DNA from: Chryseobacterium sp. FH1
GTDB lineage: Bacteria > Bacteroidota > Bacteroidia > Flavobacteriales > Weeksellaceae
NCBI RefSeq assembly: GCF_000735135.1
Contig: NZ_JPLZ01000002.1
Coordinates: 350,317 to 414,316, forward strand
DNA: 64,000 nt
Direction: 5' to 3'
Made by a program: the position numbers and the translations under genes. Under the pieces are notes generated by a model. The model made no database searches and had not been told where the DNA came from. It saw only the letters and a list, made by a program, of their open reading frames with translations. Shown piece after piece: positions 2,787 through 33,340 of this stretch. Within the stretch, counting starts at the first letter, position 1; each line of letters opens with the position of its first letter.

Positions 2787-3986
2787 TTACAAAACCTCGA
2801 TCTGATTTTTCAATAGATCTTCAAACTCATCTCTTTTTCTGATGAGGTGCGCTTTTCCATCCAAAAACATCACTTCGGCAGGCTTTAATCTGGAATTGAA
2901 ATTTGAACTCATCTCAAAACCATAAGCGCCCGCATTTCTGAAAACTAAAACATCGCCTTCTCTCACCTCATTTATTTTTCTGTCCCAAGCGAAAGTGTCT
3001 GTTTCACAGATGTTTCCGACAACGGTATAAATTCTTTCCGCACCTTTTGGATTCGATAGATTTTCGATAATGTGATAAGAATCGTAGAACATCGGACGAA
3101 TCAAATGGTTGAAACCAGAATTCACGCCCACGAAAACTGTCGCCGTTGTTTGTTTGATGACATTCGATTTTACCAAGAAATGACCGCTGTCACTCACAAG
3201 GAATTTCCCTGGCTCAAACCAAAGTTGGAATTTCTTCCCAGATTCTTCCTCGTATTTTTTGATGGAAGCATTTACTTTTTTCCCAAGAGATTTCACATCT
3301 GTTTCGATGTCACCTTCTTGATAAGGCACTTTGAAACCGCTTCCCATATCCAGATATTTCAAATTCGGGAAATGTTCTGCCAATTCAAACATAATTTCAA
3401 GACCTTGGATGAAAACATCTGGGTCTTTGATTTCACTTCCTGTGTGCATATGAAGACCTTCCACATTCAGATTGGTAGATTTCATAACACGTTCGATGTG
3501 ACGCATTTGGTGAATCGAAATTCCGAATTTGGAATCAATATGTCCAGTCGAAATCTTATGATTTCCACCAGCATAAATGTGTGGATTGATTCTCACAAAA
3601 ATCGGATAAGAACCACCGAATTTGTTTCCAAATTGCTCAAGAATCGAAATGTTATCGATGTTGATATGAACTTTATGAGACATTGCTTCCTCAATTTCAG
3701 CAAGGTCAACACAGTTTGGTGTAAAAAGAATTCGTTCGCTGGAGAAACCAGCTTTCAAGCCCAATTTCACCTCGTTGATAGAAACGCAATCCAAAGATGC
3801 GCCTAGTTTTTCTACGTACTTCAGGATATTGATGTTGGTCAAAGCCTTGGCAGCGTAGAAAAAACGCGTGGTCTTCGAGAAAGAAGATGTCAGCTTTTTA
3901 TACTGCTCGCTGATGGAATTAACGTCATAAACATACACGGGCGTCCCGAATTCTTTTGCTATACTTAGCAAGTCCTGATTGGTCAT
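2787..3986 (-). CDS. lysA: diaminopimelate decarboxylase
   Basis: Catalyses the last step of lysine synthesis, meso-diaminopimelate to L-lysine plus CO2, using PLP. The protein has 399 residues, a normal length. Visible features: FFYAAKAL with the PLP lysine at residue 47, HTGSEI at 181-186, the phosphate-binding glycines in DMGSGFKVP, EPGKF at 258-262, and the active-site CETD at 327-330. The start MTNQDLLSIAKEFGTPVYVYD fits the family. The gene has no obvious promoter of its own. About 20 bp upstream lies a terminator preceded by a lysine-rich mini-ORF and a strong promoter, suggesting attenuation or read-through control. Confidence 0.95.
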   Translation of the reverse strand: MTNQDLLSIAKEFGTPVYVYDVNSISEQYKKLTSSFSKTTRFFYAAKALTNINILKYVEKLGASLDCVSINEVKLGLKAGFSSERILFTPNCVDLAEIEEAMSHKVHINIDNISILEQFGNKFGGSYPIFVRINPHIYAGGNHKISTGHIDSKFGISIHQMRHIERVMKSTNLNVEGLHMHTGSEIKDPDVFIQGLEIMFELAEHFPNLKYLDMGSGFKVPYQEGDIETDVKSLGKKVNASIKKYEEESGKKFQLWFEPGKFLVSDSGHFLVKSNVIKQTTATVFVGVNSGFNHLIRPMFYDSYHIIENLSNPKGAERIYTVVGNICETDTFAWDRKINEVREGDVLVFRNAGAYGFEMSSNFNSRLKPAEVMFLDGKAHLIRKRDEFEDLLKNQIEVL

Positions 3987-4002: not shown

Positions 4003-4038
4003 AAATAAAAAGGCAGATTCTTATATAAAGAGTCTGCC
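4003..4038 (-). terminator. terminator between the mini-ORF and lysA
   Basis: Read on the minus strand: GGCAGACTCT, a TTATATA loop, AGAATCTGCC (one wobble), then TTTTTATTTTT. It stops transcripts heading into lysA. Its 5' arm (4029-4037) is complementary to GGAGCTGT at 4095-4102 (8 pairs, one bulged A), a possible antiterminator. Confidence 0.8.
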
Positions 4039-4154
4039 GCAATAGATATCTTATGCACGCAACTCATTATACATTCCAAACCTTAGAGAACCTTACAGCT
4101 CCCTTTTTACCGATTTTGCTTTGTTTAAAATATTGCATTGCTTGTTGTTAAAAT
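4005..4154 (-). ncRNA. candidate leader or small RNA upstream of lysA
   Basis: Bounded by a strong promoter and an intrinsic terminator, giving a transcript of about 150 nt. A closing stem is visible: GCAAT (4137-4141) with ATTGC (4039-4043), and ATAT (4130-4133) with ATAT (4046-4049). It abuts the terminator hairpin and would enclose the mini-ORF start codon. It could be the attenuator leader of lysA, a small mRNA, or an independent RNA such as a 6S-like RNA. No family was recognised with certainty. Confidence 0.5.
4067..4138 (-). CDS. lysine-rich 23-residue mini-ORF (possible leader peptide)
   Basis: ATG, 22 further sense codons, then tandem stops TAA TGA. Lysine occupies codons 5, 8, 11, 12 and 19, and the peptide is strongly basic (ends VWNV). 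It starts about 17 nt after the predicted transcript start and ends about 28 nt before the terminator, so it fills the transcribed unit. The position before lysA and the 5 of 23 lysine codons suggest an attenuation leader peptide. A small basic structural protein is the alternative. Translation is unproven. Confidence 0.45.
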   Translation of the reverse strand: MQYFKQSKIGKKGAVRFSKVWNV

Positions 4155-4160
4155 TTTTCG

Positions 4161-4191
4161 CAAAATTAGAGTTTATCTGTAAATCTCGCAA
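4161..4191 (-). promoter_or_regulatory. promoter TTG-N20-TAATTTTG of the lysA leader
   Basis: On the minus strand, TTG (4189-4191) lies exactly 20 bp before TAATTTTG (4161-4168), a near-ideal Bacteroidetes promoter. Start expected near 4154. The -33 part lies in a sequence repeated at 5231-5268; that copy lacks the -7 box. Confidence 0.75.
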
Positions 4192-4213
4192 TTTTTGGAT
4201 TGATTTTTATTTT
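4176..4213. repeat. direct repeat, copy 1
   Basis: A 38-bp stretch beginning TCTGTAAATCTCGCAATTTT. It recurs at 5231-5268 with one substitution and two 1-bp indels. The two copies flank the unknown gene at 4238-5158 together with the exonuclease-tail fossil. Confidence 0.8.
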
Positions 4214-4237: not shown

Positions 4238-5158
4238 TTATAAGTTGTTATCTATTCCGACATACTTTTCAAGACACTTTATTCCAAATTCAGTTAATTC
4301 CTCATCAATATTTAAGACTTTTCGAACTTGTAATTTATATACTCTTATATCCGAACGTCTTATAGAACGATATAATTTATCGTATCTTTTAGCTTTTATA
4401 AAATATTTAAAATGCCTATACTCAAAAGCATATGAAATTTCTTCAAACAATTTCATTAATTCAAAATCTAATTTAATTTGAGAATTAGCGTATGGTTCTG
4501 AAATGTTTTCGATTATCGTTCTATTTAATAATTTATTTGACCAATTTTCATTGATGTTGTATAATGCGAGATTAAAGAATGGCTCATCATCTATTTTTTG
4601 CGTTTGTGATAACTCTTTGAAAAATTCTTCAAGATTTATTTGGTTTTTGAAGTAATATATCCTTTTTAGTGCGGCAATTCTAATTTCAAAATTTTCTTCA
4701 TTTTGAATAATGTATTTTAAAAATTCATAAAAAAGAATATCTCTGCTTTCAGATAAACGTTTTATAAAATCTACATCTTGAATCCTATTAAACTCTAAAA
4801 TTATTAAATCAGTATTAATCTTAATTTTAAATATTTCTAAAGAATCAATACTTGCAATAGTTTGATTTTTCCAAATTTTTTCATCAATTAAATTATTATT
4901 GTATGAATGCGATTCTTTTGTACATTCTGGGTTTATAGAAAAGGCTTTTTTTAGGCAACTCAATCCCAAAAGATAATACTCTATATTTTTCTTGACAAGT
5001 TGTGTGAGCCATTCTCCAACGCTTAACCAAGTATTGTAGTCTTCTGGATTAGATTCTATGGTTTTTATGAACAGTGAGATACCAAATTGATTTCCCATTT
5101 GATTATTACTACCTATTAATGTTCCGGCTATGTAATAATTAAAGTTGGATTGATTCAT
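4238..5158 (-). CDS. unknown 306-residue protein in an AT-rich patch
   Basis: Not recognised. The protein is rich in Ile, Asn, Lys and Glu, has no signal peptide or clear membrane segment, and looks largely helical. It opens MNQSNFNYYIAGTLIGS and has an early segment NPEDYNTWLSVGEWLTQL. ATG 5158 is preferred over the TTG at 5203, because the upstream residues lie in a fossil of the exonuclease 3' end. Base composition is clearly more AT-rich than its neighbours. The style (soluble, AT-rich, variable site) resembles orphan immunity or contingency genes, but no toxin is nearby and this is only a guess. Confidence 0.6.
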   Translation of the reverse strand: MNQSNFNYYIAGTLIGSNNQMGNQFGISLFIKTIESNPEDYNTWLSVGEWLTQLVKKNIEYYLLGLSCLKKAFSINPECTKESHSYNNNLIDEKIWKNQTIASIDSLEIFKIKINTDLIILEFNRIQDVDFIKRLSESRDILFYEFLKYIIQNEENFEIRIAALKRIYYFKNQINLEEFFKELSQTQKIDDEPFFNLALYNINENWSNKLLNRTIIENISEPYANSQIKLDFELMKLFEEISYAFEYRHFKYFIKAKRYDKLYRSIRRSDIRVYKLQVRKVLNIDEELTEFGIKCLEKYVGIDNNL

Positions 5159-5167
5159 AATATCAAT

Positions 5168-5238
5168 TTTATTTTTCGGGAAGTGGAGAAACCTCAAACT
5201 CATTCCTCAAAAGCGCCAACTGCAAGTCATTCTGTAAA
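5168..5238 (-). pseudogene. fossil 3' end of an exonuclease gene homologue
   Basis: Read on the minus strand, the segment encodes QNDLQLALLRNEFEV, then SPLPEK and a stop. It matches the last 22 codons of the intact exonuclease (5821-7050), whose tail is VLELPKS. In the first 15 codons the three nucleotide differences are all synonymous (GAC/GAT, GCG/GCA, AGG/CGG), as expected of sequence that evolved inside a working gene. It stops abruptly at the repeat beginning at 5231 and ends 9 bp before ATG 5158. Confidence 0.8.
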
Positions 5239-5268
5239 ACTCGCAATTTTGGATTGGATTTTTATTTG
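5231..5268. repeat. direct repeat, copy 2
   Basis: Partner of 4176-4213. It runs straight into the exonuclease fossil. The joint falls at TTT(G/A)CAGA, shared by the intact exonuclease gene, the other repeat copy and this copy, so microhomology-mediated recombination is plausible. Confidence 0.8.
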
Positions 5269-5298
5269 TTGGATGGTGAAAATCAAAGTGGTCTTTTA

Positions 5299-5802
5299 CT
5301 ATTGCTTGTTTAATTGATACAGATTTTCCAAAAATTTAATTTTATCTTCTTCACTCCAAAGTTTTGAATAAACAAGGAGATTAAGAAAATTGTTTTTTGA
5401 TGTTCCAAACAAAAAGACATTATCTAATTTTCCATCATTGTATTTCCATATGATATATTCCAATTTAGAATCTTCTTTTAATTTTTTAGTCTTGGCTTTT
5501 GTTTCTTTTCTGTAATCAGAGTCCCATTTATAAAACTCCTTAACATTTTCATAGCTTGTATTTTCATCCTTAAAAAAAGGATAAGCTCTTTGTGGATTTT
5601 GAGCAATAGCAATTATGACTCCATCTGAATTTTGCAGATAAGTTTGTCCCGAATCTTTCACAGTATTTAATTGTTTCCAATCACCCGGGATTTTTACTTC
5701 ATCTGTATTTGTTTTTACATTTGAATATTTTAAATCATCCTGGCAAAAGATCAAACTTGGGACAAACAAAACGATTAGAAAAAAAAGATTGATTCTTTTC
5801 AT
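5299..5802 (-). CDS. small exported protein of unknown function
   Basis: A 167-residue protein with an N-terminal signal peptide (MKRINLFFLIVLFVPSLIFC|Q). The Cys is preceded by Phe, so it does not make a good lipobox; type I cleavage is more likely. The mature part is Lys/Asp/Asn-rich, with GDWKQLNTVKDSGQTYLQNSDG and a C-terminal Trp-containing helix. No family recognised. It starts 18 bp after the exonuclease stop, so it is probably transcribed from that gene's promoter. It is AT-rich like the unknown gene at 4238. Confidence 0.65.
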   Translation of the reverse strand: MKRINLFFLIVLFVPSLIFCQDDLKYSNVKTNTDEVKIPGDWKQLNTVKDSGQTYLQNSDGVIIAIAQNPQRAYPFFKDENTSYENVKEFYKWDSDYRKETKAKTKKLKEDSKLEYIIWKYNDGKLDNVFLFGTSKNNFLNLLVYSKLWSEEDKIKFLENLYQLNKQ

Positions 5803-28041: not shown

Positions 28042-29709
28042 TTATTTCTGTTCAAGAATTTTCTCGATAATTTTATGAGTGATCATATAAGTTGGTTTCA
28101 CGCCTGTGAGTCCAAGTCCGCCGGAAGATAATGTACTTCCCGTTTCCAAAGGATTATCCGAAGCGTAGTAAGCGTACATCACAAACAGATCCGGAGAAAT
28201 GTGATGACGGATTTTGCTCGCTACCTGAATGGCTTTTTGGTAATGCGCGCCCTCCATTTCCAGTCCGATGGCTTTCCACGAAGTGGTCATAAAGTAAGAC
28301 AAAATATCTTTGTTCTGAAGTGATGTTCCCAAAACCGTCACCATTGGTCCTTCAAAAGCTTTCACTTCATCATCTTGGAAATCTTCCAGTTTCAAAGCAT
28401 TCTCGAAAGTATAATTGTCTGCCGTTCCTTCGAAGATGTGAGACGTTGGGATCATAATGTCGCCTTTTCCGCCAGTCAAGATTCCGGCTTTTCCCATAAT
28501 GGAAACGGATTTCACTTTCATCATATATACTTCGCCGTTCACTTCATAAGGTCTTAGCAATTCGTCCATGACCTCGAAAGCCTGTTCTCCAAAAGCGTAA
28601 TCGAAAACCAAGATCACATCATCACCTTTATATTTCTGACCAGCAAAAACAGAATTCTTAAGTTCAGTTTTAGAAAGGTCGATGATTTGAACATCTATAT
28701 TACTTCCACTGTGGTCATCGATGTAAATCATTCCTTCTTTTAAGGCATGATCCAGAACTTTGGTTTGAAGATCTTTTTTGTTACTGATGTCAGCAAAAAG
28801 TTTGTAATCAACTTCTTTCGTCCCCTTTTTACTAAGAGCATCGTTGGCAAAAAGCATATTCTTCACCGAGTGCATATTTGCGCTGATGATGTGAAGCGGG
28901 CGCATATGAAGATTGTTCTCTACCAAAACCTGCTTGATCTTGTTTGCCCATTTCTCTCCGAAAAGGTGGTGGCCAACTCTTTCTTGTAGGATTGATGAAA
29001 AATAGATCTCTCTTTCACTTACTTCTTTCCAATCGGTCAAACTCACTTGTCCTAACCAATAGATGATCTTGAACAAACGGTCAGGATTGTTGTCATCGCC
29101 GAAGCTGTTATAAGCGTTCAAAGTTTCATCAAAGGTTCTTCCCAAGAAAGAAGAAAGATGGATCAATGCCACTTCTTTTTCTTTTCGGCTGTGTTTTTTC
29201 TCGCCTTTCGCAACTTCTTCAATGATTTTCCAAATGCGTCTTGGTCGTCCATCTTCGCTTAGGTCAAAACCGATGTTTCTGATTTTGTCTGCTTCCAGAT
29301 ATAAGAAGGTAAGGTGAGTCAAAATATCGTAGATTTCAGAACGTCCCAATAGAACTTCGATATTCATCTGGTGTTCGTCGATTCTGTAGCAATTTCTGCG
29401 TCTTTTCTTTGGAACGATTGGTTCGAAGCTTCCTTTGTCAAAACCTTCATCAGACGTTAAATGAATGAAGGAACATTCTTCGATGCCTTCCGGAAGACGG
29501 TCAAGAACATAAAGTAAACCGTCCAGCTCTATCTTGTTGGGGATGCTCATACTTCCGTAGATCTCAGGATTGATCACCATTAAGAGTTTTCTTAATGATT
29601 CGCCCGAAACACCTGAAGGTTTGAAAAATCCTCTGTAAAATAAGTGTCGCATAGACACATATAATCTTTCGATAGCCTCTGTGGTTTCTCTTGCTCTTGA
29701 ATTTGCCAT
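28042..29709 (-). CDS. Bacteroidetes-type protein with a phosphorylase-like C-terminal half (DUF6909-like)
   Basis: A 555-residue cytosolic protein. The N-terminal 300 residues are unrecognised and largely helical (RETTEAIERLYVSMRHLFYRGFFKPSGVSGESLRKLL). The C-terminal part looks like the nucleoside phosphorylase superfamily: SVSIMGKAGILTGGKGDIMIPTSHIFEGT, MVTVLGTSLQ, and KAIGLEMEGAHYQKAI, equivalent to the EMEG ribose-binding motif of purine and uridine phosphorylases. A nucleosidase or phosphorylase role is an inference from these motifs. The family name is from memory. Confidence 0.65.
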   Translation of the reverse strand: MANSRARETTEAIERLYVSMRHLFYRGFFKPSGVSGESLRKLLMVINPEIYGSMSIPNKIELDGLLYVLDRLPEGIEECSFIHLTSDEGFDKGSFEPIVPKKRRRNCYRIDEHQMNIEVLLGRSEIYDILTHLTFLYLEADKIRNIGFDLSEDGRPRRIWKIIEEVAKGEKKHSRKEKEVALIHLSSFLGRTFDETLNAYNSFGDDNNPDRLFKIIYWLGQVSLTDWKEVSEREIYFSSILQERVGHHLFGEKWANKIKQVLVENNLHMRPLHIISANMHSVKNMLFANDALSKKGTKEVDYKLFADISNKKDLQTKVLDHALKEGMIYIDDHSGSNIDVQIIDLSKTELKNSVFAGQKYKGDDVILVFDYAFGEQAFEVMDELLRPYEVNGEVYMMKVKSVSIMGKAGILTGGKGDIMIPTSHIFEGTADNYTFENALKLEDFQDDEVKAFEGPMVTVLGTSLQNKDILSYFMTTSWKAIGLEMEGAHYQKAIQVASKIRHHISPDLFVMYAYYASDNPLETGSTLSSGGLGLTGVKPTYMITHKIIEKILEQK

Positions 29710-33236: not shown

Positions 33237-33340
33237 ATGTTTTTTAGGAGCTATTTCCCGCTTTCCACTGCAATCTTTTTTCGCCAAGCTAAACTCCATC
33301 CGCAAAAAAAAAGGATTTCCGTTGCAATCGGGGCTAGGGG
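33237..33340 (-). repeat. structured ~105-nt element, copy B
   Basis: On the minus strand: AGCCCCGATTGCAACGG, AAATCCTTTTTTTTTGCG, a variable loop (GATGGAGTTTAGCTTGG), CGAAAAAAGATTGCAGTGG, then AAAGCGGG and AAATAGCTCC. The conserved blocks match copy A at 24604-24710, while the loop differs completely. Confidence 0.7.

Follow-up and report, generated by a model that had tools for sequence, protein, structure and literature searches.

A lysine-rich leader upstream of lysA in Chryseobacterium and related Weeksellaceae: a probable ribosome-mediated transcription attenuator

Layout of the lysA leader

The lysA gene of Chryseobacterium sp. FH1 lies at 2787..3986 on the minus strand of the window, by which we mean the whole stretch of 64,000 nucleotides that was analysed. 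It encodes a diaminopimelate decarboxylase of 399 amino acids (TIGR01048 equivalog, 379.5 bits, cut-off 297.9) and is the sole full-length match in the genome. Upstream of it and on the same strand, the order of a promoter, a 23-codon lysine-rich open reading frame (ORF), an intrinsic terminator and then lysA was confirmed. The promoter (4161..4191) was read from the sequence as TTG (4191-4189), N20 and TAATTTTG (4168-4161), and we take it to be of the Bacteroidota type. The leader peptide ORF (MQYFKQSKIGKKGAVRFSKVWNV; 4067..4138) starts with ATG at 4138 and stops with TAA at 4067, an in-frame TGA directly after the TAA makes the stops tandem, and lysine is encoded at codons 5, 8, 11, 12 and 19. 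All of these elements, from the TTG-N20 promoter to the tandem stops, had been claimed in the initial annotation and are present in the sequence. The intrinsic terminator (4003..4038) consists of the stem GGCAGACTC...GAATCTGCC (4038-4012) and a T-rich tail from 4011. It had been placed about 20 bp before lysA; a terminator is indeed present close to the gene, but the measured distance from the stem end to the lysA start at 3986 is 25 nt.

Several shorter segments are of importance for the pairings considered below, all of them on the minus strand. Segment 1, the start-codon region (4123..4138), comprises ATGCA (4138-4134) and TTTTAAAC (4130-4123), and its possible partners are TGCAT (4057-4053) and GTTTGGAA (4081-4074). 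Codons 12-18 of the ORF form a hairpin, AGGGAGCT-GTAA-GGTTCTCT (4085..4104), beside the Lys11-Lys12 codons, and immediately 3' of these two codons lies GGAGCTGT (4102-4095), the complement of the terminator 5' arm that had been claimed for exactly this place. Segment 2 (4053..4065) follows the stop codon, consists of GAGTTGC (4065-4059) and then TGCAT (4057-4053), and is a candidate antiterminator arm. Segment 3 (4030..4038) is the terminator 5' arm GGCAGACTC, which would be common to the terminator and the antiterminator. A generic terminator scan returned no terminator at the locus, probably owing to the mismatch in the stem of the window, and a generic promoter scan gave no site at the position of the leader promoter on this strand. 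Single-sequence folding of the region is only modestly better than that of shuffles (z = -1.63).

Distribution, coding constraint and tie to lysA

A region of 291 nt containing the leader was found in all 23 genomes of the genus, our own included, and is 88-99% identical in the 22/22 others; in one genus genome (G016) contigs end around the leader region. The nearest named lysA records are those of Epilithonimonas (E. xixisoli and E. lactis; 99%). With the 181-nt leader as query, 155 of the 296 family genomes gave a blastn match that passed the cut-off of the tool, a count that includes short weak matches, and two of the fetched matches have no lysA nearby. One locus at a contig end and without lysA (L024) and two weak matches without lysA (L092 and L093) were excluded before 60 loci were aligned. 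The leader lies directly upstream of lysA in all 60 aligned loci, the sequence beyond the promoter diverges, and a peptide conserved with no tie to lysA, the outcome named beforehand as speaking against an attenuator, was not found there; this count does not extend to the second blastn matches that some Chryseobacterium genomes gave.

lysA itself was used as bait in 120 family genomes, most of them without a blastn leader match, with 29 listed family genomes left out of the search. A lysA match was obtained in 103, and the upstream regions of 80 were read, the other 23 belonging to a group of 55-60% identity. Among the 80 were 24 leaders of other sequence built on the same plan, 55 regions with no leader and one that is cut by a contig end. 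The leader plan thus precedes lysA in 84 of 140 Weeksellaceae upstream regions (55 lack it and one is cut), 60 of the 140 having been chosen by their blastn match. The 84 leaders fall into 16 types at a score threshold of 80%, one leader cut by a contig end (L100) having been dropped beforehand. The set was built by requiring an ORF, a terminator and at least four lysines (the actual range being 4-9), so that the presence of the ORF in 84 of the 85 terminator-bearing regions, the remaining one being cut by a contig end, is to be read with both features as set conditions. The stop codon is separated from the terminator by 23-33 nt and the terminator from lysA by 18-34 nt. In a set of 80 loci taken from titled public records, the leader occurs in 48, is lacking in 31 and is cut in one. 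Carriers include Epilithonimonas, Chryseobacterium, Kaistella, Halpernia humi and Cloacibacterium rupense; Elizabethkingia, Riemerella, Soonwooa, Cloacibacterium normanense and several records of Chryseobacterium and Kaistella are among those that lack it.

In other Flavobacteriales families the leader was found in none of 40 sampled lysA upstream regions, three of which have terminator-like hairpins and none of which has a lysine-rich ORF with it. Of the shuffled upstream regions, 1/252 had a terminator at 95 nt or less from the gene, and none had one with a lysine-rich ORF in register. The leader is therefore more than a product of chance, given this count and the 88-99% identity in 22/22 genomes. 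Lysine-rich ORFs (17-40 codons, at least 20% lysine) also occur in 12 of the 55 leaderless regions; the searched core motif (described below) was found in none of the 12, several of which look like the ends of upstream genes. In 83 of the 84 leaders a TAnnTTTG motif is present whose end lies 18-29 nt upstream of the leader start (mean in shuffles 1.76, maximum 7/84), and the -33 part of the promoter is weak, with TTG or TTT in place in 52/83. Between the leader stop and lysA the motif is absent from all 84 leaders, which agrees with the claim that lysA has no promoter of its own as far as promoters with this motif are concerned. Of the 55 leaderless lysA genes, 35 have TAnnTTTG at most 100 nt away; hence lysA genes with the leader seem to have no recognisable route of transcription other than the one that the leader controls.

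Three further observations were made in the course of these searches. In one locus (L177, genome G065) a terminator-like hairpin, AAGGCAGGCTC...CCTGCTT, was seen by eye between a TATTTTTG box and lysA; it was not counted by the terminator filter and has no obvious leader ORF, and is possibly the remnant of a lost attenuator. Seven lysA genes (L307, L308, L311, L313, L317, L319 and L320), from Edaphocola, Taibaiella, Flavihumibacter, Pinibacter and one Chitinophagaceae record, are 74-80% identical to the query, and none of the seven has the leader. lysA of other Flavobacteriales families reaches 62% identity at best, and the comparison hints at a gene transfer. A search with the core pattern was rejected as a means of counting leaders in the 296 family genomes, since many of the matches listed were unrelated and the reversed pattern also matched widely.

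The ORF is under purifying selection in its own frame. In the type to which the window belongs (59 leaders, 47 distinct ORFs) dN/dS is 0.22 (pS 0.311, pN 0.083), to which RNA pairing inside the ORF may contribute, and the other two frames read as coding give pN/pS of 1.84 and 0.68. Lysine accounts for 102 of 383 residues (26.6%) in the 16 types, compared with 38.2 ± 4.7 when the nucleotides of each ORF are shuffled without in-frame stops (0/2,000 as high), a comparison in which at least four lysines had been a condition of the set. All types but one (15 of 16) have a lysine at positions 7-9. AAG makes up 49/102 (48%) of the lysine codons in the leaders and 251/1,241 (20%) in the long ORFs of the window (Fisher p = 3e-9), where the leaders come from several genomes and the long ORFs from one; among the 39 tRNA genes detected in the genome, tRNA-Lys occurs only with the anticodon UUU, in two copies. 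Variants of a core KGxxxFSK recur across the types, as in the relative leader peptides MIRFTSIKQVASKGKKFFSKENIGV, MTAKKSIKKFATKGKKLSTKANIVH and MNAILKIKSTSSKGKKHFPKAKKWSYSKELQ and in a leader started with TTG that reads KTVYASKKGMKKGSKKFSKKPV after its first residue.

Constraint on the peptide extends beyond the lysine codons, Gly10, Gly13, Val20 and Trp21 being invariant in 59/59 leaders of the window's type. Together with the recurring core and the low dN/dS, this could be expected of an arrest peptide, in which the nascent chain, through the core KGxxxFSK and the end VWN, would respond to a small molecule, for instance free lysine or diaminopimelate, by stalling the ribosome and would so switch the terminator. 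We consider this quite improbable, as the peptides of different types do not share a C-terminus (VWNV, ENIGV and AIYVD), the Val20 codon is GTT in 59/59 with its wobble base fixed as RNA pairing would require, the hairpin and outer-stem pairing account for part of the conservation of the core, and an arrest peptide would have no need of lysine enrichment. Just as doubtful is a combined device, in which the leader would count codons and also act as an arrest peptide, with KGxxxFSK sensing free lysine or a pathway intermediate in the ribosome and the lysine codons, AAG-rich although tRNA-Lys(UUU) genes alone were found, reporting charging; if true, it would represent a two-input lysA attenuator that replaces the L-box of other phyla.

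The initial annotation had left room for a small basic protein or an independent RNA such as 6S-like RNA, and both are disfavoured. A small basic protein with a job of its own, encoded by a separate unit that merely precedes lysA, would account for the ORF having its own promoter and terminator and for the low dN/dS. It is nevertheless very unlikely: the ORF stands beside lysA in every aligned locus, has one copy in its own genome (search to three mismatches over 27 nt), leaves lysA without a recognisable promoter and varies between types outside the lysine core, and six leader peptides compared with Pfam and NCBIfam gave no match to E 1. The high nucleotide conservation over the whole element could also befit a structured riboswitch or an independent small RNA (L-box, T-box or 6S-like) in place of a translated leader, a reading to which we give almost no weight. 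No Rfam family reaches its gathering score at the leader, the sub-threshold matches lying below the cut-offs, and no L-box, T-box or 6S-type RNA was found in the whole window at gathering thresholds or in a local scan to E 5. The L-box model (RF00168) gave no match in the 23 genus genomes, and it matched in 4 of 14 control genomes.

Base pairing in the leader and the proposed attenuation

Pairing was assessed by swapping arms between the 16 types, the counts of which serve as guides rather than strict probabilities because the types share ancestry. The terminator arms match best in their own combination (0/20,000 swaps as good). In 10 sequences of the Kaistella/Halpernia type 99% of the cells are paired, with five double-sided changes, and in 27 sequences of the window's type 99.6% are paired, with one-sided changes only. 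The arms of the in-ORF hairpin are also matched, own pairing giving 115/128 compared with 104.0 ± 3.1 for swapped arms (4/20,000 as good), and 91% of the cells are paired in 35 distinct cores, compared with at most 70% in slid controls. In the window the hairpin reads AGGGAGCU-GUAA-GGUUCUCU as RNA; that of the Kaistella type is AGGGGAAA-AAGT-TTTTCTCT in DNA and AGGGGAAA-AAGU-UUUUCUCU in RNA. It is a possible pause hairpin.

The 2:3 and 1:2 pairings are moderately supported. Segment 2 pairs with segment 3 in the window through GAGUUGC (4065-4059) and GC-A-GACUC, with one bulge and a GAGUU:GACUC core; the equivalent in the Kaistella types is GAGCUGC with GC-A-AGCUC (GAGCU:AGCUC) and in Halpernia humi GAGCC with GGCUC. 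The mean energy of segment 2 with the terminator 5' arm is -9.87 kcal/mol, compared with -5.63 kcal/mol for shuffled stop zones (0/300 as low), and 367/20,000 swaps are as good across the 16 types. The 2:3 cells are paired at 95.3% in 27 sequences and at 88.6% in 10, the slid controls reaching at most 57% and 43%. Covariation of 2:3 within types is weak or absent, with 23/500 shuffles as high in the 27 sequences of the window's type and 227/500 in the 10 of the Kaistella type. Among the possible partners of the terminator arm, the stop zone ranks first in 9 of 16 types, and no position within the ORF is better in 49 of 84 leaders. With moderate confidence, we regard 2:3 as the likely antiterminator. 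The 1:2 pairing, in varying register, is matched by 44/20,000 swaps across the 16 types and appears in the RNAalifold consensus of the 27 window-type sequences, in which it is nearly invariant and has no double-sided change; it is not in the consensus of the 10 Kaistella/Halpernia-type sequences. Segment 1 with segment 3 gave no signal (10,200/20,000 swaps as good). The 31-codon leaders of the Cloacibacterium type (L106 and L153) have the candidate segment 2 (GAGCTGC) in the last ORF codons rather than after the stop. In one leader (L113, genus g24), the wiring of which may differ, the strongest complement of the terminator 5' arm is found at the ORF start (-14.0 kcal/mol) and not in the post-stop segment.

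The antiterminator first suggested for this leader was GGAGCUGU, inside the ORF (4102-4095), with the terminator 5' arm, and that part of the earlier claim has stood only partly. A lysine attenuator wired in this way gains from the window itself, where the pairing reaches -11.2 kcal/mol, equal to that of the stop zone there, where the GGAGCTGT site is the better single 12-nt partner of the arm (-9.7 versus -8.0 kcal/mol) and where it could form while a ribosome waits at Lys5 or Lys8. The site pairs well in three related types, but in the other 13 of 16 pairing with the mid-ORF is limited to -2.5 to -6.5 kcal/mol, and own combinations have no advantage over swapped ones across the 16 types (5,459/20,000 as good). 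Moreover, GGAGCTGT reads GGAACTGT in 11 of 59 window-type leaders, the Ala14 codon having changed from GCT to ACT and broken one pair, and a ribosome stalled at Lys11-Lys12 would cover the site. We therefore hold this wiring to be unlikely, and the post-stop segment has moderate support as the more general candidate.

Taken together, the comparative data favour the core of the original interpretation, and the leader is probably a ribosome-mediated, lysine-responsive transcription attenuator that controls lysA. RNA polymerase would start shortly before the mini-ORF, as the promoter motif suggests, and a ribosome would follow and translate it. With ample lysyl-tRNA, the ribosome would reach the stop codon and its footprint would cover the post-stop segment 2, so that the terminator (3:4) could form, transcription would end in the cell and lysA would not be transcribed. 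When lysine is short, the ribosome would stall at the lysine codons, most effectively at codons 5 and 8, and cover segment 1, whereupon segment 2 would be freed to pair with segment 3 and transcription would continue into lysA. If no ribosome is present, 1:2 pairing is proposed to favour termination.

This scheme was examined by partition-function folding in which a ribosome footprint, assumed to span 18 nt before and 13 nt after the first base of the A-site codon, was masked. In the leader of the window the predicted probability of the terminator is 0.99 without a ribosome and 0.99 with the ribosome at the stop codon, and it is 0.03 for a stall at Lys5, 0.15 at Lys8, 0.65 at Lys11, 0.97 at Lys12 and 0.99 at Lys19. 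With a ribosome stalled at Lys12 or Lys19 the terminator is not released, and the values at Lys5 and Lys8 make the early lysine codons the sensors in the model. The terminator falls below 0.5 at some lysine codon in 52 of 84 leaders and in 4 of 16 type representatives. A full equilibrium switch, defined as below 0.5 at some lysine codon and at least 0.5 both at the stop and without a ribosome, is predicted for 48 of 84 leaders, mostly of the window's type, and for only 3 of 16 type representatives. In the representatives of the Kaistella type the terminator stays at 0.76 or above in every ribosome state, for which reason the model needs co-transcriptional kinetics there.

In a further test, devised after the equilibrium result had been seen, the leader was folded as it stands prior to transcription of the terminator 3' arm. 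Ribosomes stalled at lysine codons raise the mean sequestration of the 5' arm above that with a ribosome at the stop; the gain is greater than 0.05 in 73 of 84 leaders and in 10 of 16 types, and the other six types do not exceed this value. The mean gain over the types is 0.128, compared with -0.057 ± 0.029 for shuffled post-stop segments (maximum 0.016 in 30 trials). Relative to the ribosome-free state, a gain at any lysine codon is confined to 22 of 84 leaders and 7 of 16 types, and the proposal that no translation means termination therefore receives no support from this test.

Relation to known systems and other features of the window

Leader-peptide attenuators are classically known for the trp, his, leu, ilv, thr and phe genes. 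The lysA leader shares with them the promoter, the short ORF rich in codons for the end product, the alternative pairings, the intrinsic terminator and the promoterless biosynthetic gene. It differs in its amino acid, lysine, and its phylum, Bacteroidota, in that the candidate antiterminator arm comes directly after the stop codon, and in that lysine codons lie in and around an in-ORF hairpin whose arms are matched across types. Attenuators of amino-acid operons are treated in PMC1183508 and PMC1262725, the former of which explains why the choice of regulatory codon matters.

Like the lysA leader, the L-box (RF00168) is an RNA that acts in cis on lysine genes, a control that PMC1262725 names for other species; the lysA leader region differs in having no match to it. 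The same paper reports no conserved RNA element upstream of lysine operons in Actinobacteria. The gain or loss of a single regulatory device can be followed within one family here, lysA occurring either with the leader or without it and then often with a nearby promoter motif. The L-box senses lysine by an aptamer, without translation, and lysine genes of several phyla are under its control. In Bacteroidota, attenuation has likewise been proposed before amino-acid operons of Flavobacterium psychrophilum, for which the accessible main text of PMC9723704 gives strong clues for leader peptides and names structured elements upstream of pheA and hisG that other genera have conserved; neither lysA nor lysine is mentioned in that text. 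Leader-peptide-like sORFs are described for Bacteroides thetaiotaomicron, with no occurrence of lysine in the part available of PMC7366714. lysQ of Lactococcus lactis was considered as a lysine precedent and rejected, as the passage at hand in PMC4833913 concerns histidyl-tRNA.

No description of a lysine attenuator or of a lysA leader was found in the main texts of the open-licence PMC papers listed in the searches. The element, present in part of the Weeksellaceae, is real, its mechanism would be an ordinary one if our reading is right, and it is undescribed in the open-licence literature searched. A lysine attenuator, if true, would fill a gap, leader-peptide attenuation having been described for other amino acids, and would provide a well-defined test case in Bacteroidota with about 16 natural variants.

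Elsewhere in the window, a match to SNORD36, a snoRNA family, at 28659-28736 on the minus strand (32.8 bits, E 0.24) is most likely due to chance. A Flavo-1 RNA (RF01705, 72.1 bits) lies at 33250-33339 on the minus strand; the motif was computationally inferred, is widespread in Flavobacteriaceae and has no clear function according to PMC9723704. Close to the leader, a 37-bp repeat (92% identical) at 4176-4212 and 5231-5267 flanks a 321-aa ORF at 5203-4238. In three relatives (L015, L016 and L018) a sequence like the end of the ORF at 7050-5821, which is exonuclease-like by eye, lies directly before the leader promoter, and from this arrangement the stretch 4238-5802 looks like an insertion in the window.
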